From Pelagibacteraceae bacterium AG-390-O04 (GTDB taxonomy: Bacteria; Pseudomonadota; Alphaproteobacteria; Pelagibacterales; Pelagibacteraceae): DNA of 64,000 nucleotides. The notes beneath the pieces are model-generated. The model searched no databases. It was not told the DNA's origin and worked only from the letters and a program-made list of their open reading frames with translations. The stretch is from the NCBI GenBank assembly GCA_003278065.1, contig QCHE01000005.1, positions 1-64,000 on the forward strand. The letters run 5' to 3'. Shown here in pieces: positions 19,937 through 48,056 of this stretch. Position 1 is the stretch's first letter. Every line of letters begins with the position of its first letter. The position numbers were made by a program, and so were the translations under genes.

Positions 19937-21439
19937 TTGATATTACATAATGTAAAAGTTTATCCATCTAAAATTCATTTACCTAAAACAAAACAACTTG
20001 CATGGAAAATAGCTGAAATCGCAAGTGATAATGCTAGACTAGATAAAGATGCTATTGAAATGGCAATCAACAGAATTATTGACAATGCATCTGTTGCTAT
20101 TGCCTCTCTTAACAGAAGGCCTGTAGTTTCATCAAGAGAGATGGCTTTGAAACATTCAAGGAAAAATGGTGCCACACTATTTGGTGTTAATAGTAAATTA
20201 AAATTTGATTGTGAGTGGGCAGCATGGTCAAATGGTACAGCTGTTAGGGAACTTGATTTTCATGATACTTTTTTAGCTGCAGATTATAGTCATCCAGGAG
20301 ACAATATTCCTCCGCTCATTAGTGTTGCACAACAAAATAAAAAAAATGGTTTAGATCTTTTAAGAGGAATTATAACTGCTTATGAAGTTCAAGTTAATTT
20401 AGTTAAAGGAATTTGTTTACATAAACATAAGGTTGATCATATAGCTCACTTAGGTCCAAGTGTTGCTGCAGGAATAGGATCGATGCTAAAACTAAATATA
20501 GAAACTATTTATCAAGCAGTACAGCAAGCATTACATACAACAATTTCAACAAGACAATCTCGAAAAGGTGAAATTTCAAGTTGGAAAGCATATGCTCCTG
20601 CACACGCTGGAAAACTTGCCATAGAAGCTGTCGATAGAGTAATGCGTGGTGAGGGTGCCCCTAGTCCAATTTATGAAGGTGAAGATAGTGTGATTGCAAG
20701 AATTCTTGATGGAAAAAAAGCACTATATAAAGTTCCTCTTCCAAAAAAGGGTGAAATAAAGAAAGCAATTCTTGAAACTTATACAAAAGAATATTCAGCC
20801 GAGTATCAATCTCAAGCATTAATTGATTTAGCAAAAAAATTGAAAAAAAAAGTACAAAATCTAAATCAAATAAAAAAAATTGATATTTATACTAGTCATC
20901 ACACACATTACGTTATTGGTACCGGTGCTAATGATCCTCAAAAGATGGATCCAAACGCATCAAGAGAAACATTGGATCATTCAATTATGTATATATTTGC
21001 TGTAGCGTTAGAAGATGGGAATTGGCACCACGTAAAATCTTACTCAAAATCAAGAACTAAAAGAAGAAGCACAATTAGAATTTGGAGATCAATAAAAACT
21101 CATGAAGACAAAAAATGGACGAAAAGATATCATGATCCAAATCCTAAAAAAAAAGCATTTGGCGCAAAAGTCATAATTACCCTAAAAAATGGAAAAAAAA
21201 TTGTTGAAGAGCAAGGTGTTGCTGATGCCCATCCTTATGGCTCACGTCCTTTTAAGAGAAAAAATTATATCAATAAATTTTTAACTTTGACTGAAAATAT
21301 ATTGAGTAAAAAAGAGAGTGATAGATTTCTAAAAATAGTACAAAATCTAAGAAAAATTAAATCAGGTCAATTAGATAAATTGAATATAGAAATTAAAAAA
21401 AGTAAACTTAAGAGAAATTTAAGAAAGGGAATTTTTTAG
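19937..21439 (+). CDS. prpD: 2-methylcitrate dehydratase (MmgE/PrpD family)
   Basis: 500 residues with a TTG start supported by AGGAG at 19927-19931. The family core is clear: [23 protein letters not shown] near residue 112, [15 protein letters not shown]-like [18 protein letters not shown] and [13 protein letters not shown]. PrpD dehydrates 2-methylcitrate in propionate breakdown and does not use an Fe-S cluster. The enzyme is followed by prpB with a TAGTG overlap and by prpC, which gives the methylcitrate cycle in order D-B-C. No prpR or prpE is next to it. Confidence 0.93.
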
Positions 21440-22335
21440 TGCATTTTATAGAAAAAGATCCAAGTCAAAAAAGAGAAGATTTTGCTAAAAAATTAGAGTC
21501 TAATAAAATTTTAAGAGTCCCAGGTGCTTATAATCCTCTTACAGCAAAATTAATTGAAGAAATTGGTTACGACGCTGTCTATGTTTCTGGCGGGGTAATG
21601 GCAAACGATCTTGGATTTCCAGATATTGGTTTAACTACTCTTCAAGATGTAAGCACTCGATCTTATCTTATTTCAAGAGTAACTAATCTCCCAACTATTG
21701 TTGACATAGATACTGGTTTCAATTCTTGTAAAGAAACAATTGAAACTTTTGAAGAATTTGGAATATCTGCAGTACATCTGGAAGATCAAATAGAGAGAAA
21801 AAGGTGTGGACACTTAGATAACAAAGAACTTATTTCAACAGATGCAATGGTAAAAAAAATAAAAGAGTGTGTTGCTGCCAAAAAAGATAAAAATTTTAAA
21901 ATCATTGCGAGATCTGATGCAAAAAGTGTTGAAGGTATAGATAAAATGATTGAAAGATGTAAGGCATATATAGATGCAGGTGCTGAGATAATTTTTCCAG
22001 AAGCTTTGCATGACGAAAAAGATTTTGAAAAAGTTAGAAAAAAACTTTCAAGTTATTTATTAGCTAATATGACAGAATTCGGAAAAACTAAATTATTCGA
22101 TTACAAAAAATTAGAGGAATTTGGATACAATATAGTCATATATCCAGTTACAACTCAAAGATTAGCTATGAAAAATGTTGAGGATGGATTAAGAGACATT
22201 TATGTAAATGGACATCAAAACAATATTATTGATAAGATGCAAACTAGAAAAAGATTGTATGAATTAGTTGATTATGAAAAATATAATAGTTTAGATGAAA
22301 AAATTTACAACTTTAGTACTGATGGACATGAATAA
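21439..22335 (+). CDS. prpB: 2-methylisocitrate lyase
   Basis: 298 residues with a GTG start overlapping the prpD stop. It cleaves 2-methylisocitrate to pyruvate and succinate. The isocitrate lyase superfamily catalytic motif K(R)CGH appears as KRCGHL near residue 122. The Mg-binding acidic groups are in DIDTGF and LEDQ, and the N-terminal VPGAYNPLTAKLIEE and YVSGG segments match PrpB and not AceA. The GTG, though unusual, follows directly from prpD translation. Confidence 0.95.
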   Translation: MHFIEKDPSQKREDFAKKLESNKILRVPGAYNPLTAKLIEEIGYDAVYVSGGVMANDLGFPDIGLTTLQDVSTRSYLISRVTNLPTIVDIDTGFNSCKETIETFEEFGISAVHLEDQIERKRCGHLDNKELISTDAMVKKIKECVAAKKDKNFKIIARSDAKSVEGIDKMIERCKAYIDAGAEIIFPEALHDEKDFEKVRKKLSSYLLANMTEFGKTKLFDYKKLEEFGYNIVIYPVTTQRLAMKNVEDGLRDIYVNGHQNNIIDKMQTRKRLYELVDYEKYNSLDEKIYNFSTDGHE

Positions 22336-23459
22336 TGACTGATGAAATTAAAAAAGGTTTACTAGGAATAATAGTGGATGAAACAGAAGTTTCAAAAGTA
22401 ATGCCTGAAATTAATTCTCTAACATATAGAGGTTATGCTGCACAAGACTTATGTGCTAAATGTAAATTTGAAGAAGTAGCTTATTTAATCTTAAATGGAG
22501 AGCTACCAAATAAAAATCAATTAAAAAAATTTGAAAAACAAGAAAGAAAAGAAAGGAAACTTTCTAAAACTATTCTTGAAGATATTAAAAAATTTCCAAA
22601 GAAATCTCACCCAATGGATGTTGCAAGAACAGCTGTAAGTATATTGGGTCTCGAAGATAAAGAAACTAAAGATAATTCACCTGAGGCTAATATGCGAAAA
22701 GTGATGAGAATTTTTGCGAAAACACCTGTTGCACTAGCTGCCTTTTATAGATCTAGAAAGGGTAAAAAAATTATACCTCCAAAAAGTAATCTATCTTTTT
22801 CTGAGAATTTTTTTCATATGTGTTTTGGTAAAGTTCCCAACAAAGATATTGTAAAAGCTTTTGATGTATCTTTAATTTTATACGCAGAGCACAGCTTTAA
22901 TGTTTCAACTTTTACCGCACGAACAATTACGAGTAGCTTATCAGATATTCATGGTGCTATAACAGGTGCTATAGCAAGTTTAAAAGGTCCTTTACACGGT
23001 GGTGCTAACGAGGAAGTTATGCATATGATGAATAAAATTAAAAAACCAGAAAATGCGTTAAAATGGATTAACAAAGCTTTAGATAATAAAGATGTTGTAA
23101 TGGGATTTGGTCATAGAGTCTATAAAAGTGGAGATTCTAGAGTTCCTACAATGAGAGAATATTTTGGAAAAGTTGCAAAAATTAAAAAAGATAAAAAATT
23201 TGAAAAGATCTATGACATAGTTGAAAAAGTTATGATCGAAAGAAAAAATATTCATCCTAATGTCGATTATCCTACGGGACCTACTTACCATTTGATGGGT
23301 TTCGATACTGATTTTTTTACACCAATTTTTGTTATATCTAGAATTACTGGATGGTCTGCACACATTATTGAACAACATGCAGCAAATAAATTAATAAGAC
23401 CACTAGCAAGCTATAAAGGAAATCAACACAGAAAAGTTGTTCAATTGAATCAAAGGTAA
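22335..23459 (+). CDS. prpC: 2-methylcitrate synthase
   Basis: 374 residues, typical of the short citrate-synthase-like PrpC (full citrate synthase is about 430). It condenses propionyl-CoA with oxaloacetate. Catalytic residues are visible in LYAEHSFNVSTF (His), GHRVYKSGDSR (His and Arg) and PNVDYPTGP (Asp). SLKGPLHGGANEEVM is the family signature. The order with prpD and prpB supports methylcitrate rather than citrate synthase. It ends 2 bp from the convergent methyltransferase stop. Confidence 0.93.
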   Translation: MTDEIKKGLLGIIVDETEVSKVMPEINSLTYRGYAAQDLCAKCKFEEVAYLILNGELPNKNQLKKFEKQERKERKLSKTILEDIKKFPKKSHPMDVARTAVSILGLEDKETKDNSPEANMRKVMRIFAKTPVALAAFYRSRKGKKIIPPKSNLSFSENFFHMCFGKVPNKDIVKAFDVSLILYAEHSFNVSTFTARTITSSLSDIHGAITGAIASLKGPLHGGANEEVMHMMNKIKKPENALKWINKALDNKDVVMGFGHRVYKSGDSRVPTMREYFGKVAKIKKDKKFEKIYDIVEKVMIERKNIHPNVDYPTGPTYHLMGFDTDFFTPIFVISRITGWSAHIIEQHAANKLIRPLASYKGNQHRKVVQLNQR

Positions 23460-41530: not shown

Positions 41531-42208
41531 TTAAGAGTTAAAGCCATATTTTTTTTCTAAAAATTTAATCATATTATGGATTATAAAAGTCATAAATAGA
41601 TAAATACCACCAGCAACAATAAATACCTCTATTGGTTTAAAAGTTGTAGAAATTATATATTTTGCAACACCAGTTAAATCCATTATTGTAACCGTACTTG
41701 CTAGAGAAGTGCCTTTCATCATCAAAATTATTTCATTTCCGTATGCTGGAAGTGATTGTCTAATAGCTATTGGAATTTGTATTTTGTAAAAAATAATCTT
41801 GCTAGATATACCTAAGCTTTGACCAGCCTCAATTATACCTGGTTTAATTGTTTGGAATGCTGATCTTAAAATTTCTGAAGTGTAGGCTCCAGTATTAAGA
41901 GCAAAAGCAATAATTGCACACCAATATGGTTCTTTCAAAATGACCCATAAAAATGTAGTTCGTAAATATTCAATTTGTCCTAAGCCAAAATAAATAATAA
42001 ATATTTGAACTAATAAAGGTGTGCCTCTAAATATATAAGAGTATCCATATGCAAATTTATTAATTATGATATTTTTGTTTAACCTCAAAATTGCAAATAA
42101 TAATCCAATAAACAAACCTATAATTAATGAAACTGACAAAAGTTTTAAAGTTATAACAGCAGCGTTAAGTAATTTTGGAAAACTATTGATCATCAATTCA
42201 AAATCCAT
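41531..42208 (-). CDS. polar amino acid ABC transporter permease (HisM/ArtM-type)
   Basis: 225 residues with about five membrane spans. The EAA loop that contacts the ATPase is EAGQSLGISSKIIFYKIQIP, at residues near 125-145, and IFRGTPLLVQIFIIYFGLGQ is the usual N-terminal motif of this permease family. It overlaps the partner permease by one base and is followed at once by the serine hydrolase. No ATPase gene is present in the unit. Confidence 0.92.
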   Translation of the reverse strand: MDFELMINSFPKLLNAAVITLKLLSVSLIIGLFIGLLFAILRLNKNIIINKFAYGYSYIFRGTPLLVQIFIIYFGLGQIEYLRTTFLWVILKEPYWCAIIAFALNTGAYTSEILRSAFQTIKPGIIEAGQSLGISSKIIFYKIQIPIAIRQSLPAYGNEIILMMKGTSLASTVTIMDLTGVAKYIISTTFKPIEVFIVAGGIYLFMTFIIHNMIKFLEKKYGFNS

Positions 42209-42900
42209 TAATACCCCTTGCTATATTTAACTTCTAATTTATTAATTAATTTCATACTTACAAAAGTGAGTAATAAATATAAAACCGCTGCGAATGAGTA
42301 AAAGAATAATGGATCTCTTGTTGACCCAGCTGCAATATACGATTGTCTCATAATTTCAACTAAACCAGTGACTGATATTAAAGATGTGTCTTTAAGAGTT
42401 ATTTGCCAAACATTGCTTAAATTGGGTATAGCCAATCTTAAAGTTTGAGGTAAAATAATTTTAAAAAATTTACCAAATTTACTTAAACCCAAAACATTGG
42501 CAGCCTCAAACTGACCTTTGTCTATTGATTGAACTGCTCCCCTAAAAACTTCAGTTGAATAAGCTCCAGAAATAATTCCTATTGCAAATGCGCCAGTTAT
42601 AAATGCATTTATTTCAATATACTCATTATAACCAAATATAGAAGCAACATACATAACAGCCCCGGTACCTCCAAAAAAGAAAAGGTAGATTACTAATAAT
42701 TCTGGAACACCTCTGATTACAGTTGTGTAAGAATTTGCTATGAAATTTAATAATTTATTTTTTGAGAGTTTAAGTGGAGTAAAAATTGCTGCAAAACTAA
42801 AACCAATTATCATTGCTGTAATAGATACAGCAATCGTCATTAGGGTTGCATAAAACAGCTCATCACCCCAACCAGTTTTTCCAAATGCTAGAAGTTCCAT
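42208..42900 (-). CDS. polar amino acid ABC transporter permease (HisQ/OccQ-type)
   Basis: 230 residues, about five membrane helices. VIRGVPELLVIYLFFFGGTG and the EAA loop EAANVLGLSKFGKFFKIILP match HisQ and OccQ proteins of lysine/arginine/ornithine/octopine systems. It forms a heterodimer with the second permease, whose gene overlaps its stop. The binding-protein gene is 44 bp upstream, and the arrangement SBP-HisQ-HisM is typical except that HisP is absent. Confidence 0.92.
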   Translation of the reverse strand: MELLAFGKTGWGDELFYATLMTIAVSITAMIIGFSFAAIFTPLKLSKNKLLNFIANSYTTVIRGVPELLVIYLFFFGGTGAVMYVASIFGYNEYIEINAFITGAFAIGIISGAYSTEVFRGAVQSIDKGQFEAANVLGLSKFGKFFKIILPQTLRLAIPNLSNVWQITLKDTSLISVTGLVEIMRQSYIAAGSTRDPLFFYSFAAVLYLLLTFVSMKLINKLEVKYSKGY

Positions 42901-42944
42901 AAAGATTGGCGACTATATATTATAGTCGCCAAATCTAAAATTAA

Positions 42945-43775
42945 TTACATAGAAGCGTCAAAACCGAACCATTTAGTAGCAATTCTACTTATGTCTCCGT
43001 TCTTTCTTGCTTTCTCAATTGCTTTATTAAATGCTTTTAAAAGTTCAGTATCATCTTTTCTGATACCAACTCCAACACCATTACCAAACGCACCACCTGA
43101 AAAAGTTGGTCCAGTTAAAACAACTGGCTTACCAGATTTTTCTGCATAATCACTAAATGCTACTGCAGCAGCTAATGCGGCATCACATCTTCCTGAAGCT
43201 AAATCTAAGTTAACTTCATCTTGGGTTTTGTATGTTCTTACATTTACTTTCCCAACATCACCAGAGTCTAAAAAATTTTGGTGAATTGTTGCAGTTTGTA
43301 CACAAACTGTTTTTCCAGCTAAAGCTGCAGTAAGAGTTTTTAATGCTTTTTTTGCATCAGCATTAGGTTTAGTTAGATTGATTCCTGCAGGTGTATCTAA
43401 TCCTTCTAAGCTCGAACCTTTCATGACTGCTAACGAAGCAACTTCATCAGCATAACCTTGAGAAAAACTTATTGCTTTTTGTCTTTCAGCTGTAATTGAC
43501 ATCCCAGCCATAATTGCATCAAATTTTCTCATGATTAAAGCTGGTATCATTCCATCCCAATCCTGTTCAACGATCACACACTGTTTACCCATGTATCTAC
43601 ATAATGAGTAAGCCAACTCAACCTCAAATCCAATCAATTTACCTGATGCATCTTTTGAATTCCATGGAGGATAAGCTCCTTCAGTTCCTATTTTGATTTT
43701 ATCTGCTGCATTAACATTTCCAATAATCAAAAATGAGGCAAGAACTGAAAAAATAGTTTTTTTAAGTATATTCAT
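42945..43775 (-). CDS. ABC transporter substrate-binding protein, basic amino acid (LAO/octopine) type
   Basis: 276 residues with a signal peptide cleaved probably after GNVNA (residue 23). The SBP_bac_3 core is KIKIGTEGAYPPWNSKDASGKLIGFEVELA (read in two parts), followed by WDGMIPALIMRKFDAIMAGMSIT and CVQTATIHQNFL. Similarity in wording to HisJ/ArgT/OccT proteins suggests lysine, arginine or ornithine. A clear AAAGGAG Shine-Dalgarno stands upstream. It is 64 bp downstream of speD::speE, which needs putrescine derived from arginine or ornithine, but the functional link is inference. Confidence 0.92.
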   Translation of the reverse strand: MNILKKTIFSVLASFLIIGNVNAADKIKIGTEGAYPPWNSKDASGKLIGFEVELAYSLCRYMGKQCVIVEQDWDGMIPALIMRKFDAIMAGMSITAERQKAISFSQGYADEVASLAVMKGSSLEGLDTPAGINLTKPNADAKKALKTLTAALAGKTVCVQTATIHQNFLDSGDVGKVNVRTYKTQDEVNLDLASGRCDAALAAAVAFSDYAEKSGKPVVLTGPTFSGGAFGNGVGVGIRKDDTELLKAFNKAIEKARKNGDISRIATKWFGFDASM

Positions 43776-43839: not shown

Positions 43840-44880
43840 TTAGTGATTTATTGAGGAAGAAAAATTCCAAGAACAGTCAAAACTTGGTATGTAAACTCTT
43901 GATAAATTAGTATTTCCAAAATGATGGTTAAAAACATTTAACCAATTTTCAACTTGAAGAGGTTTTTTATCTTGACTACCTACTTGAGCAGTAATTACAC
44001 CTTTTGGTTTCAAAATTCTCACAAGTGAATCCATATTCTTTGCTGCCAGATCAATGCAAAATTGATCATCATTTAAATCAACAAATATATGGTCATATGT
44101 ATCTTCTTTAACAGATTTAATACTTTCAAATGCATCTCCCCAAACACATTTAACTGAATTTTTTTCAGTCGCTTTTTTACCTATTTCACCTAGATGTTTT
44201 TTGCAAACTTCTACTACTTCAGGATCAAGTTCATACCAATCTATAAAATTAAATTTTTTAGAGATACACTCTCTCGCGACCCCTCCATCTCCACCACCAA
44301 TTATGGCTGCTTTTTCATTTGATTTGTTTAGTTTTAATCCTGATCCAACAAAAGTTGAGCTATAAAGATGTTCGTCTGTTGATGCTACCTGAATTTCACC
44401 ATCAATAAATAATGATTTTCCAAACTGTTCTAAATCAAGAATTTCAATATGTTGCCCTACTTTAGATTTAAAATCTTCAAGAACATCATTAACTACGTAA
44501 GATTTTTGTAAACCTGGTGAGCTATAAATATCATGATAAAGAGCTCTAGTGTCCCTGTTAAACTCTTTTCTGACAATTCTTTTGTGTTTGAATTCTTTTT
44601 TAACAATGTCGATTGCAACAGATGGAGTAATTTTTCCACAAGTAAAAAAATCAAAACTAATGATACCTTTTTCGGGAAAGGTGTGAAAACTAATATGACT
44701 TTCAGCTAATAAAGCTAAAATTGTAAAGCCTTGAGGTTCAAATTTATATTTTGATATATTTAAAATAGTAACTTTAGCTGCTTTTGCAATTTCGTTAATT
44801 ACTTTTTCAAATATTAAAGGATCATATTCTCTATCAGTCCCAATAATATCTAAAGTGATGTGCTCCCCAACTTTTATCAT
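43840..44880 (-). CDS. fused S-adenosylmethionine decarboxylase / spermidine synthase
   Basis: 346 residues. Residues 1-120 are a class 1 prokaryotic AdoMet decarboxylase: Ser61 in ESHISFHTFPE is the self-cleavage and pyruvoyl site, and H66 and C81 match the two further catalytic residues. From about 115 to 346 a spermidine synthase domain follows, with VASTDEHLYSSTF and GGGDGGVARE (196-204). The usual VDSTDP active-site loop reads VDLNDDQ, which keeps both aspartates but not the proline. One polypeptide would decarboxylate SAM and use the product at once on a diamine, releasing MTA. The gene is last in the mtnP-mtnA-aldolase operon, 5 bp from the aldolase. Confidence 0.9.
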   Translation of the reverse strand: MIKVGEHITLDIIGTDREYDPLIFEKVINEIAKAAKVTILNISKYKFEPQGFTILALLAESHISFHTFPEKGIISFDFFTCGKITPSVAIDIVKKEFKHKRIVRKEFNRDTRALYHDIYSSPGLQKSYVVNDVLEDFKSKVGQHIEILDLEQFGKSLFIDGEIQVASTDEHLYSSTFVGSGLKLNKSNEKAAIIGGGDGGVARECISKKFNFIDWYELDPEVVEVCKKHLGEIGKKATEKNSVKCVWGDAFESIKSVKEDTYDHIFVDLNDDQFCIDLAAKNMDSLVRILKPKGVITAQVGSQDKKPLQVENWLNVFNHHFGNTNLSRVYIPSFDCSWNFSSSINH

Positions 44881-44885
44881 AAAAA

Positions 44886-45551
44886 TTATCCACTTTTATA
44901 ATTTTTAACTTTCTCCAAAATTTTTTTCATTTCTGCAAACGAAAGATTCTTTGGCTCTCCCATCTTTAAAGCAATAACATATTGTTGGCAAATATTTTCT
45001 ACTTCTTGTGCAAGCTCAAATGCTTTTGATAAATTATCACCAAATGCAACCTGTCCGTGGTTTGACATCAAACATGCTTTTCTATCTTTTAAAGCTTTAA
45101 CAATATTCATTGAAAGTTCATATGTTCCAAAGGTTGCATACTCAGCACATCTAATATCTTCACCTCCTGCTAGAGCAATCATGTAATGAAATGGAGGAAT
45201 TGATTTACCGTGAGTCGAAACTGCTGAAGCATTAGGAGAATGCGCATGTACAATGGCTTTTGCCTCCCATTTATTCTTATAAATATCCTGATGAAATCTC
45301 CACTCTGAAGAGGGATTTTTTCCAGAATTAAACCAAGATAAAAAGTCTTTTTCTTCAGTTAGAGATAAAAAGACAATATCTTCTGGTTTAAGTGATTCGT
45401 ATTTTTTTCCTGAAGGTGTAATAAAAAAACCCTCAATACCATCCTCAATACCTCTAACCGAAATATTTCCTGATCTTAAAGGAGATAAATTTGTAGTATT
45501 AAGTTTGATAGAGTATTCAATTACTTCCTCCCTTTCTCTCAAATTTTTCAT
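44886..45551 (-). CDS. class II aldolase, FucA-like; probable 5-methylthioribulose-1-phosphate aldolase
   Basis: 221 residues. Catalytic Glu83 lies in PSSEWRFH, and zinc histidines are H102, H104 (VHAHSPN) and H165 (MSNHGQVAFG). The resemblance to L-fuculose-1-P aldolase is close over HYMIALAGG and CAEYATFGTYELS. Its 4-bp overlap with mtnA upstream and speD::speE downstream points to methylthioribulose-1-P as substrate. FucA-like enzymes in this position split it to DHAP and 2-methylthioacetaldehyde (the DHAP shunt). The MtnB dehydratase is the main alternative, but mtnC, mtnD and mtnW are absent here. Confidence 0.8.
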   Translation of the reverse strand: MKNLREREEVIEYSIKLNTTNLSPLRSGNISVRGIEDGIEGFFITPSGKKYESLKPEDIVFLSLTEEKDFLSWFNSGKNPSSEWRFHQDIYKNKWEAKAIVHAHSPNASAVSTHGKSIPPFHYMIALAGGEDIRCAEYATFGTYELSMNIVKALKDRKACLMSNHGQVAFGDNLSKAFELAQEVENICQQYVIALKMGEPKNLSFAEMKKILEKVKNYKSG

Positions 45552-46618
45552 TTAAATAACTTCTTTAATCCATCTTTTGATGCTTTACATATCCCTTTTT
45601 CAGTAATCAAACCTGTAACATATTTGGCAGGTGTAACATCAAAAGCCAAATTCACAGCTTTACTTTTTTTCGGGTATATTTGTACTTTTGTAACATTACC
45701 TTTTTCATCAATACCTTCTATATGAGATAATTCTTCTGAATTTCTCTCTTCAATAGGAATATCATTATGGTCTTTTATATTCCAATCAATTGTTGAACTT
45801 GGCAGTGCAACATAAAAAGGAATTTTGTTATCATGAGCTGCTAGTGCTTTTAAGTAAGTTCCAACTTTATTACAAACATCTCCATTAGCTAAAGTTCGAT
45901 CTGTACCGACAATACACATATCAACCTCACCTCTTTGCATTAAAATTCCACCAGTATTATCTGCAATGATTGTATTTTTAATCCCCTCTTCATTTAACTC
46001 ATAAGAAGTTAAATTAGCTCCTTGATTTCTTGGTCTAGTTTCATCTGCCCACACATGAACAGGAATACCTTTTTTATGTGCATGATATATTGGTGAAGTT
46101 GCAGTCCCCCAATTTATTGTTGCCAACCAACCTGCATTACAATGTGTGAGAATATTAACTGTATCTTTTTTTTTATTATAGATTTCTTCGATAATTTTAA
46201 GTCCATTTAATCCTATATTTTCACAAAATTTAACATCTTCTTCACATATATCTTTTGCTTCATTCAAAGCAATTTCTAAAATTTTATCACTATTAACACC
46301 TGATAATTTTTTTATCATTCTATCAACAGCCCACTTCAAATTTATTGCTGTTGGTCTCGAACTAATTAAATCCTCAGCAGATTTTTTTAAAAATGATTGA
46401 TCATTATTTTCAAAAATAGCTAAAACCAATCCATAAGCTGCGGTCGCTCCTATTAAAGGAGCACCTCTTACTTCCATTACTTTTATTGCATTTATTGCAT
46501 CATTTACTGTTTTAAGATCTTTAACAATAAATTGGTGTGGAAGTTTTGTTTGATCAATAATTTTTACAACATTGTTTTCAAACCAGATTGTGCGGTATTC
46601 TTTACCTTCAATTTTCAT
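45548..46618 (-). CDS. mtnA: methylthioribose-1-phosphate isomerase
   Basis: 356 residues. RGAPLIGATAAYGL near residue 51, the catalytic cysteine in NILTHCNAGWLAT near 160 and the aspartate in VGTDRTLANGDVCNKVGTY near 240 are the MtnA signature elements of the eIF2B-like fold. It isomerises methylthioribose-1-P to methylthioribulose-1-P. The ATGA overlaps on both sides (mtnP and aldolase) put substrate producer and product user in one transcript. No mtnK is present, which agrees with the use of a phosphorylase. Confidence 0.95.
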   Translation of the reverse strand: MKIEGKEYRTIWFENNVVKIIDQTKLPHQFIVKDLKTVNDAINAIKVMEVRGAPLIGATAAYGLVLAIFENNDQSFLKKSAEDLISSRPTAINLKWAVDRMIKKLSGVNSDKILEIALNEAKDICEEDVKFCENIGLNGLKIIEEIYNKKKDTVNILTHCNAGWLATINWGTATSPIYHAHKKGIPVHVWADETRPRNQGANLTSYELNEEGIKNTIIADNTGGILMQRGEVDMCIVGTDRTLANGDVCNKVGTYLKALAAHDNKIPFYVALPSSTIDWNIKDHNDIPIEERNSEELSHIEGIDEKGNVTKVQIYPKKSKAVNLAFDVTPAKYVTGLITEKGICKASKDGLKKLFK

Positions 46619-47487
46619 TTATTTAAAACCCTACCTGCAACTGTTTTTAATTTATCTTTAGTTTTTTGTGTTCTTTTTTCAGGTGCTGTGATAATAGCAA
46701 CGTCTAAACAATTGTTAGTTGGGTCTTTATGATCAATATGATTTTCAAAATTTTCTATTAAATTTTTAATCATATTTTTTGCTTTAGCAGCATTACCTAA
46801 TAAGACTTTTATTACTTGTTGAACATCAACATTTTCATGATCAGGATGCCAACAATCATAATCTGTAACCATTGATATAGATGCATATCTAATTTCTGCT
46901 TCTCTAGCTAATTTAGCTTCAGGCATATTAGTCATCCCAATAACATCCGCTTTCCAAGATCTGTATAAATTTGACTCTGCCAATGTTGAAAATTGAGGCC
47001 CTTCCATAACAACATATGTACCATTTCTTTGATATTCAATTTTTTCTTTTTTAATTGACTCCTCACATGCATTCATTAATCCATTAGATGTAGGATGAGC
47101 CATAGAAACATGAGCAACAATTTCGTCATCAAAAAATGTTTTTTCTCTGGCAAATGTTCGATCAATAAACTGATCAACAATAACAAATTTTCCAGGGGGC
47201 AAATCCTCTTTTAGAGACCCAACTGCTGAAACTGACACAATATCAGTTACACCTAACTGTTTAAGAGCATCAATATTTGCTCTAAAATTTATTTTTGAGG
47301 GAGAAACAAAGTGTCCTCTTCCATGTCTTGGTAAGAAGTAAACTTCTTTATTATTATAATTAGTTTTTAAAATTTGGTCTGAAGGTTTTCCCCATGGAGT
47401 ATTTAAATCAATTAATTCTCTATTTTCAAATTCTTCAACATCGTATAGTCCACTTCCACCGATTATTGCTAATTTATTAATTGCCAT
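46615..47487 (-). CDS. mtnP: S-methyl-5'-thioadenosine phosphorylase
   Basis: 290 residues. IIGGSGLYDVEEF at the start binds phosphate, and RHGRGHFVSPSKINFRANI, MEGPQFSTLAES and MTNMPEAKLAREAEI are typical MTAP segments. TDYDCWH fits the MTA-binding loop, where Asp near D209-D211 contacts N7 of the purine. Products are adenine and methylthioribose-1-P. It is the first gene of the operon and is divergent from apt, which uses the adenine. Bacterial PNP, a related family, lacks the DYDCWH element. Confidence 0.95.
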   Translation of the reverse strand: MAINKLAIIGGSGLYDVEEFENRELIDLNTPWGKPSDQILKTNYNNKEVYFLPRHGRGHFVSPSKINFRANIDALKQLGVTDIVSVSAVGSLKEDLPPGKFVIVDQFIDRTFAREKTFFDDEIVAHVSMAHPTSNGLMNACEESIKKEKIEYQRNGTYVVMEGPQFSTLAESNLYRSWKADVIGMTNMPEAKLAREAEIRYASISMVTDYDCWHPDHENVDVQQVIKVLLGNAAKAKNMIKNLIENFENHIDHKDPTNNCLDVAIITAPEKRTQKTKDKLKTVAGRVLNK

Positions 47488-47528: not shown

Positions 47529-48056
47529 ATGGATTTAAAAGAATATATAAGATCTATACCTGATTATCCCAAAAAAGGAATTCTCTTTAGAGATATCACT
47601 ACTTTGATTAAAAATGAAAAAGCGTTTGCAGAATGTATTAATCAAATAGTCGATAAATGTAAGAAATATGATGTAGATAAGATAGCAGCTATAGAATCTA
47701 GAGGTTTTGTTTTTGCATCAGCTGTGTCTTATATCCTAAAAAAACCATTCATTATGTTGAGAAAAAAAAATAAATTACCTGCAGATGTCCATTCTGTAGA
47801 TTTTCAACTCGAGTATGGAACAGCCACTATTGAGGTTCATAAAGATTCAATTAAAAATAATGAAAATATTTTGATTATTGACGATCTCATAGCAACTGGA
47901 GGTACTGCGGAAGCAGCTGCTCAACTTGTTGAAATGTCTAAAGGAAAGGTTGCTGCCTTTATATTTGTAATCAATTTATTTGATTTAGGTGGAAATGAAA
48001 ATTTAAAGAAAAAAAATTATAAAGTTGAAAATTTAATTGAATTTCCAGGACATTAG
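47529..48056 (+). CDS. apt: adenine phosphoribosyltransferase
   Basis: 175 residues from ATG 47529 (MDLKEYIRSIPDYPKKGI), the normal length; a longer frame from 47481 would overlap the mtnP start and is not family-like. The PRPP loop is LIIDDLIATGGTAEAA near residue 118 and ESRGFVFASAVSY is the adenine-side loop. It converts adenine and PRPP to AMP. The divergent neighbour mtnP produces adenine, and just 41 bp lie between the two start codons, so coordinated expression is likely. Confidence 0.95.
   Translation: MDLKEYIRSIPDYPKKGILFRDITTLIKNEKAFAECINQIVDKCKKYDVDKIAAIESRGFVFASAVSYILKKPFIMLRKKNKLPADVHSVDFQLEYGTATIEVHKDSIKNNENILIIDDLIATGGTAEAAAQLVEMSKGKVAAFIFVINLFDLGGNENLKKKNYKVENLIEFPGH

Follow-up and report, generated by a model that had tools for sequence, protein, structure and literature searches.

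What does an enzyme make when an AdoMet decarboxylase (AdoMetDC, SpeD) runs directly into an aminopropyltransferase (SpeE), and when a loop of the transferase departs from its usual sequence? The question is posed by a gene in the window that we analyzed, the first 64,000 nucleotides of contig QCHE01000005.1 of Pelagibacteraceae bacterium AG-390-O04. The gene, speDE, lies on the minus strand at positions 43840–44880, stop codon included, starts with ATG, and encodes a 346-residue fusion of a class 1b AdoMetDC to an aminopropyltransferase. The reading frame is not a product of chance, as it is conserved at full length, with ~59–97% identity, across the Pelagibacteraceae.

Both halves carry the residues expected of their families. 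The SpeD domain (residues 7–109; 44554–44862, minus strand; PF02675) matches the Pfam AdoMet_dc model at 95.7 bits (cut-off 25) and the SpeD model TIGR03330 at 95.3 bits (cut-off 75.65), and its PHROGs matches are to SpeD families only. Conserved residues predict self-cleavage at E60–S61 (44698–44703, minus strand), with the pyruvoyl group arising from S61: E60–S61, H66 and C81 are invariant in an 8-row alignment, S61, H66 and C81 remain so in 24 rows, and their spacing equals that given for S63/H68/C83 of T. maritima SpeD in the accessible text of PMC10407285. The SpeE domain (residues 119–340; 43861–44526, minus strand) is delimited by PF17284 and PF01564 and by its fold, with Spermine_synt_N at residues 119–165 and Spermine_synth at 170–340 (87.4 bits, cut-off 22.9); the spermidine synthase equivalog models were not reached (TIGR00417, 98.9 against 249.55; PRK00811, 122 against 260). 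Within this domain lie the GGGDGG motif (residues 195–200; 44281–44298, minus strand) and the loop D268-L-N-D-D272 (44065–44079, minus strand), which replaces DSTDP. D198, D268 and D271 are invariant in the 24-row alignment, DSTDP fusions included for both loop aspartates. The original prediction, which gave no strand, had described the fusion with its E60–S61 site and GGGDGG motif, and all of these are present; its reading of residues 267–273 as VDLNDDQ was also correct, and DSTDP is confirmed as the usual form in other fusions (L007, L009, L010).

The fusion is widespread in the family and sparse beyond it. Within the family, 158 of 197 genomes gave a match (E ≤ 1e-10), as did 128 of 197 in an order sample; a class sample gave 13 matching genomes out of 385 (E ≤ 1e-20), five of them Pelagibacteraceae, and a phylum sample 15 out of 398 (E ≤ 1e-15), many of these matches spanning one domain only. 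The family search returned no fusion match for some near-complete SAR11 genomes, 12 of genus g280 and three of g1, and the order sample none for four of those listed from family f174. Each of 12 SAR11 genomes has a single aminopropyltransferase match that exceeds the cut-off, and four of the 12 have a second, weak match below it.

The altered loop had been taken for a special change in this protein, a view that does not survive comparison with its relatives. In 153 loci with a near-full-length match, the loop reads DLNDD in 150 and DSTDP in three, all three being non-SAR11 fusions. Eighty named loci, all DLNDD, lend the loop no independent support because they were retrieved by the peptide patterns NDDQFCI and FDCSWNF; in the 70 Pelagibacteraceae loci found without a loop pattern, at >50% identity (67 distinct aligned sequences), DLNDD is the sole form and both loop aspartates are kept. 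A local oddity of this genome is thereby ruled out, and VDxxDD is the common form in the clade. As the assayed members of the clade make spermidine in E. coli (PMC11107197), this is the outcome that the original prediction had named as its refutation. Outside the Pelagibacteraceae, DLNDD occurs in none of the loci examined from the class and phylum samples. The loop is one of three SpeE traits seen only in SAR11, the others being a gate shorter by 2–3 residues and the loss of the C-terminal ~45–50 residues that other bacterial fusions possess. Two genomes, G406 and G415, we take to be those of strains HTCC1062 and HTCC7211, respectively; the window protein is 85% identical to the G406 protein and 89% identical to the G415 protein, the DLNDD loop is identical in all, and we see no difference that would predict another function.

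These strains matter since their fusions, WP_011282223 (HTCC1062) and WP_008544956 (HTCC7211), which belong to the same family and follow the same two-domain plan, were expressed in E. coli by Li et al. 2024 (PMC11107197). The available portion of that report describes a functional AdoMetDC, production of spermidine in a speD deletion strain and of spermine and thermospermine in a speE deletion strain by both Ca. Pelagibacter fusions, and, with both, conversion of diaminopropane to norspermidine in relatively large amounts; LC-MS/MS areas were 4.2–5.0e7 for thermospermine and 7.9–8.1e7 for spermine. The suggestion that the acceptor range extends beyond that of a plain spermidine synthase thus holds for the assayed orthologs. 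In the window protein, the motif 2 aspartate D198, with G200 two residues on, and the motif 3 glutamate E217 fit the spermine synthase pattern given in the same portion (PMC11107197). The motif alignment there covered only residues 50–110 of E. coli SpeE, which places the loop outside that analysis.

Taken together, SpeDE is an ordinary member of an assayed family, and its loop is a family trait. On the strength of the activities of the HTCC1062 and HTCC7211 orthologs, the window protein most likely combines an AdoMetDC with a spermidine/spermine/thermospermine synthase in one chain; we infer from sequence that it shares their activity. The SpeD domain would cleave itself at E60–S61, acquire a pyruvoyl group and decarboxylate AdoMet; the SpeE domain would then transfer the aminopropyl group to putrescine to give spermidine, and would also add one to either end of spermidine, giving spermine and thermospermine, and to diaminopropane. 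With the neighboring genes included, we hold it very probable that SAR11 SpeDE makes spermidine, spermine and thermospermine from putrescine while the adjoining genes clear the methylthioadenosine (MTA) by-product.

Putrescine would probably come from arginine, by way of an ADC-like decarboxylase and agmatinase, or from uptake. The genome itself carries lysA, an ADC-like decarboxylase gene, and one match to the arginase/agmatinase family; for SAR11 ‘ODC’ homologs that were assayed, the text available from PMC9992855 gives arginine as the only substrate decarboxylated. On contig C14 of the same genome, a deoxyhypusine-synthase-like gene (L174:94–1134) scores 578.5 bits against NF002699, 1,9-bis(guanidino)-5-aza-nonane synthase (cut-off 500), and is adjoined by the ADC-like gene (L174:1137–2318). 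The placement of an arginine decarboxylase gene beside this match suggests that two agmatines may be coupled in SAR11, as is reported for Thermus (PMC10981699).

The loops of solved transferases offer a view of what the altered loop could signify. The comparison drew on only a few of ~30 solved sequences: those titled thermospermine synthase or polyamine aminopropyltransferase read DLADP (6bq2) or DLTDP (7xif, 1uir, 3anx), one of this group being titled triamine/agmatine aminopropyltransferase, and spermidine synthases read DSSDP (Plasmodium), DSTDP (1inl) or DSTEP (1iy9). The non-SAR11 fusions L189, L191 and L193 read DLNDP or DLTDP. It is a reasonable inference that the Ser to Leu change (DSxD to DLxD), rather than loss of the proline, goes with triamine acceptors, and that the SAR11 proteins then lost the proline and the C-terminal tail; the Ser to Leu change would be the likelier mark of specificity.

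The predicted structure invites comparison with animal spermine synthase. An AlphaFold2 model built from a 24-row alignment reached a mean pLDDT of 88.2 and a pTM of 0.68. The top six Foldseek matches to the model were chains of human spermine synthase (3c6k, 3c6m; 356–366 columns, rmsd 7–8 Å), as expected from the common two-domain plan, of which human spermine synthase is the sole solved example in the structure lists. VIA-align placed 7xif at Z 30.9 (236 aligned, rmsd 2.1) and human spermine synthase at Z 27.2 (226 aligned, rmsd 2.0) and 25.8 (323 aligned, rmsd 7.0) for the modeled chain, in a list that is taken up by the SpeE half (model residues 110–346) and is uninformative on the SpeD domain. 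By sequence, human spermine synthase is not the nearest protein, scoring 47.2 bits where thermospermine synthase reaches 68.9. The accessible text of PMC12803844 (Li et al. 2025) traces animal spermine synthase back to a bacterial fusion with the same arrangement of domains, reports that the SpeD-like domain of the human enzyme has lost its AdoMetDC function, and also describes AdoMetDC-aminopropyltransferase fusions from a delta-proteobacterium and Krumholzibacteria. A special kinship of the SAR11 protein with the animal enzyme, which fold, fusion and missing tail might evoke, is not favored by the sequence scores. The fusions with DLNDP or DLTDP loops do not help such a kinship either, as the two that were searched, L189 and L193, scored best against Pyrobaculum and Thermus transferases and worst against spermine synthase among PDB sequences.

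Other bacterial fusions (L007, L009, L010, L189, L191, L193) resemble the SAR11 form in the SpeD-then-SpeE chain, GGGDGG and both loop aspartates; they differ in having only 23–30% identity to it, DSTDP, DLNDP or DLTDP loops, and a retained C-terminal tail of ~45–50 residues. Three of them, from non-SAR11 Pseudomonadota (L189:1339–2538, L191:958–2277, L193:1327–2670), keep the full tail and are candidate triamine-using transferases. Two further observations concern variant fusions. In L010:1198–2427 and L180:5113–6510, the SpeD cleavage site reads ETSNI rather than AESHI, the serine being kept and the glutamate and histidine changed, and the substrate may differ. The fusion at L176:154–1203 (the same gene as in L012) has a degenerate SpeE motif, with IGSSEG for GGGDGG, and the loop MDLPDEQ; its transferase half may be dead or changed.

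Several other accounts of the SAR11 enzyme can be weighed against this background. The original prediction held that losing the proline after the second aspartate may alter amine specificity, a proposal left unsupported here; the change common to some solved triamine-using transferases is Ser to Leu. A switch to another diamine such as cadaverine appears highly unlikely: aspartate does replace the proline in every SAR11 copy, and the assayed orthologs do accept diaminopropane (PMC11107197), but all members of the clade have lost the proline and those assayed give spermidine in E. coli (PMC11107197), both loop aspartates are retained, and leucine, not proline loss, is what the triamine-using transferases share with them. 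The word cadaverine has 0 occurrences in the available text of the SAR11 assay paper (PMC11107197). That the SpeD domain is instead a neofunctionalised arginine or ornithine decarboxylase is barely credible; such shifts are known for class 1b SpeD, that of a pelagiphage included (PMC10407285 and PMC9992855, in the portions available), but this domain is the single SpeD of its genome (1.06 Mb in 31 contigs, 88.6% complete), and E. coli lacking speD regains spermidine with the orthologs (PMC11107197). In favor of direct channeling of decarboxylated AdoMet from the SpeD site to the SpeE site, also suggested by the original prediction, both steps sit on one chain and the family has retained the fusion. 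We regard channeling as unlikely, however, as fusion may merely fix stoichiometry or aid dimer formation, and the placement of the two domains in the model is unsure, given its pTM and the rmsd of its full-length superposition on human spermine synthase.

Upstream of speDE, and in the same direction, lies a gene set for disposal of MTA. A class II aldolase gene (PF00596; 44886–45551, minus strand), 5 bp from speDE, probably encodes an Ald2-like 5-methylthioribulose-1-phosphate aldolase; it is followed upstream by mtnA, for methylthioribose-1-phosphate isomerase (45548–46618, minus strand; TIGR00512, 423.5 bits, cut-off 279), and mtnP, for methylthioadenosine phosphorylase (46615–47487, minus strand; NF006492, 446.4 bits, cut-off 437). 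The divergent apt, for adenine phosphoribosyltransferase, occupies 47529–48056 on the plus strand (TIGR01090, 202.5 bits, cut-off 185.85); its first in-frame TTG is at 47481, and the ATG at 47529, picked by eye, is the likely start. Overlaps of 4 bp join mtnP to mtnA and mtnA to the aldolase gene, and from gene spacing we infer co-transcription of mtnP-mtnA-aldolase-speDE. No riboswitch was found for the operon, the sole gathering-score match in the whole window being a tRNA. In the proposed route, MTA from the aminopropyl transfers would pass to these gene products: MtnP would release adenine for recycling by Apt, and the resulting sugar phosphate would be isomerised by MtnA and then probably split by the class II aldolase into DHAP and an aldehyde, as in the DHAP shunt. 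The aldolase scores 186 bits with fuculose-phosphate aldolase models and 57 with MtnB, all below curated cut-offs; it may act on 5-methylthioribulose-1-phosphate, like Ald2, rather than as the dehydratase MtnB. Acireductone dioxygenase exceeded its cut-off in none of the 12 SAR11 genomes, with one weak match below.

The MTA DHAP shunt comprises mtnP or mtnN together with mtnK, mtnA and ald2 (PMC10986504). The window resembles it in its consecutive genes for MtnP, MtnA and a class II aldolase of the FucA type, and differs from it in that the set is linked directly to the polyamine enzyme and in that the aldolase falls below model cut-offs. No description of the link between speDE and an MTA gene set was found in the literature on MTA in Pelagibacter/SAR11 or on the DHAP shunt, for which the material comprised mostly titles and the beginnings of abstracts.

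On its downstream side, speDE is followed directly by genes for an amino-acid ABC transporter (41531–43775, minus strand), which many of the other loci also have at this place; its binding protein comes closest to the lysine/arginine/ornithine types but scores below cut-off. Farther off, three adjoining reading frames (19937–23459, plus strand) resemble, by eye, the 2-methylcitrate cycle genes prpD, prpB and prpC.

An MTA gene set adjoins speDE in every one of the 81 loci whose upstream sequence extends for 4 kb or more, a collection in which genomes may recur between the two sources and 20 unnamed regions were hand-picked for spread. The set takes three forms: MtnP-MtnA-aldolase in 71 loci, MtnP-MtnA-aldolase/dehydrogenase in seven, and an MtnN-like nucleosidase in three; within the 81, L079 and L064 lack an apt match and L109 lacks a match to mtnP or apt. 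The second form bears a 677-residue fusion of aldolase and short-chain dehydrogenase (L067:7126–9159, L140:3863–5893; NF006192, 887 bits, cut-off 639), which takes the position of the small aldolase, between mtnA and speDE, but on the opposite strand, and may both cleave the methylthio sugar and act on the aldehyde so formed. The MtnN-like nucleosidases are 174–178 residues long and below curated cut-offs (L078:7220–7744, L074:4768–5304, L039:920–1438, L075:7141–7674). Nine of 12 genomes have mtnA; it is absent from G406, G458 and G420, those with the nucleosidase beside speDE, so that at the presumed HTCC1062 locus (G406) an MtnN-like gene replaces the MtnP-MtnA-aldolase set of the window. 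The SpeDE of L140 is 93% identical to that of the window and yet its locus has the aldolase/dehydrogenase form, which makes the exchange of MTA sets look recent.

In a conjecture that we consider unlikely, MtnP, whose reaction is reversible, could leave MTA available, so that strains with MtnP-MtnA-aldolase, presumably including HTCC7211, could degrade spermidine through SpeE; the MtnN-like nucleosidase would destroy MTA irreversibly, and the genome that we take for HTCC1062 could not. This bears on the proposal of Noell et al. 2021, who worked with HTCC1062 and HTCC7211, that SpeE runs in reverse in HTCC7211 (PMC8437039). According to the accessible text of that study, putrescine rose in HTCC7211 fed spermidine, diaminopropane rose in cells fed norspermidine, and there is no spermidine dehydrogenase gene. 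We nevertheless find it quite unlikely that the SpeE half works mainly backwards in the cell, from spermidine to putrescine: the same text presents the effect as not clear in HTCC1062 (PMC8437039), and the reverse step would consume MTA, yet MTA-removing genes adjoin speDE in every well-covered locus. In its full form, the same unlikely conjecture puts speDE at the center of an MTA module that takes different plugs, where the type of plug decides whether aminopropyl transfer can be reversed and the SAR11-only SpeE traits open the active site. If true, the plug type would explain the difference between HTCC7211 and HTCC1062 observed by Noell et al. (PMC8437039, in the portion available), and DLNDD, the shortened gate and the lost tail would together give an open site that takes both ends of spermidine.

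Of the features of this locus, the by-product module is the part less expected and worth following. As SAR11 bacteria abound in the ocean and require reduced sulfur, their route to polyamines and the fate of its sulfur by-product matter for the flow of carbon, nitrogen and sulfur there. A loop that is fixed in the family, together with published products, makes the role of the loop in choosing the spermidine end testable by simple variants. The exchangeable MTA sets, for their part, predict that methylthio-sulfur meets different fates in different strains, and that spermidine breakdown perhaps differs among them as well.
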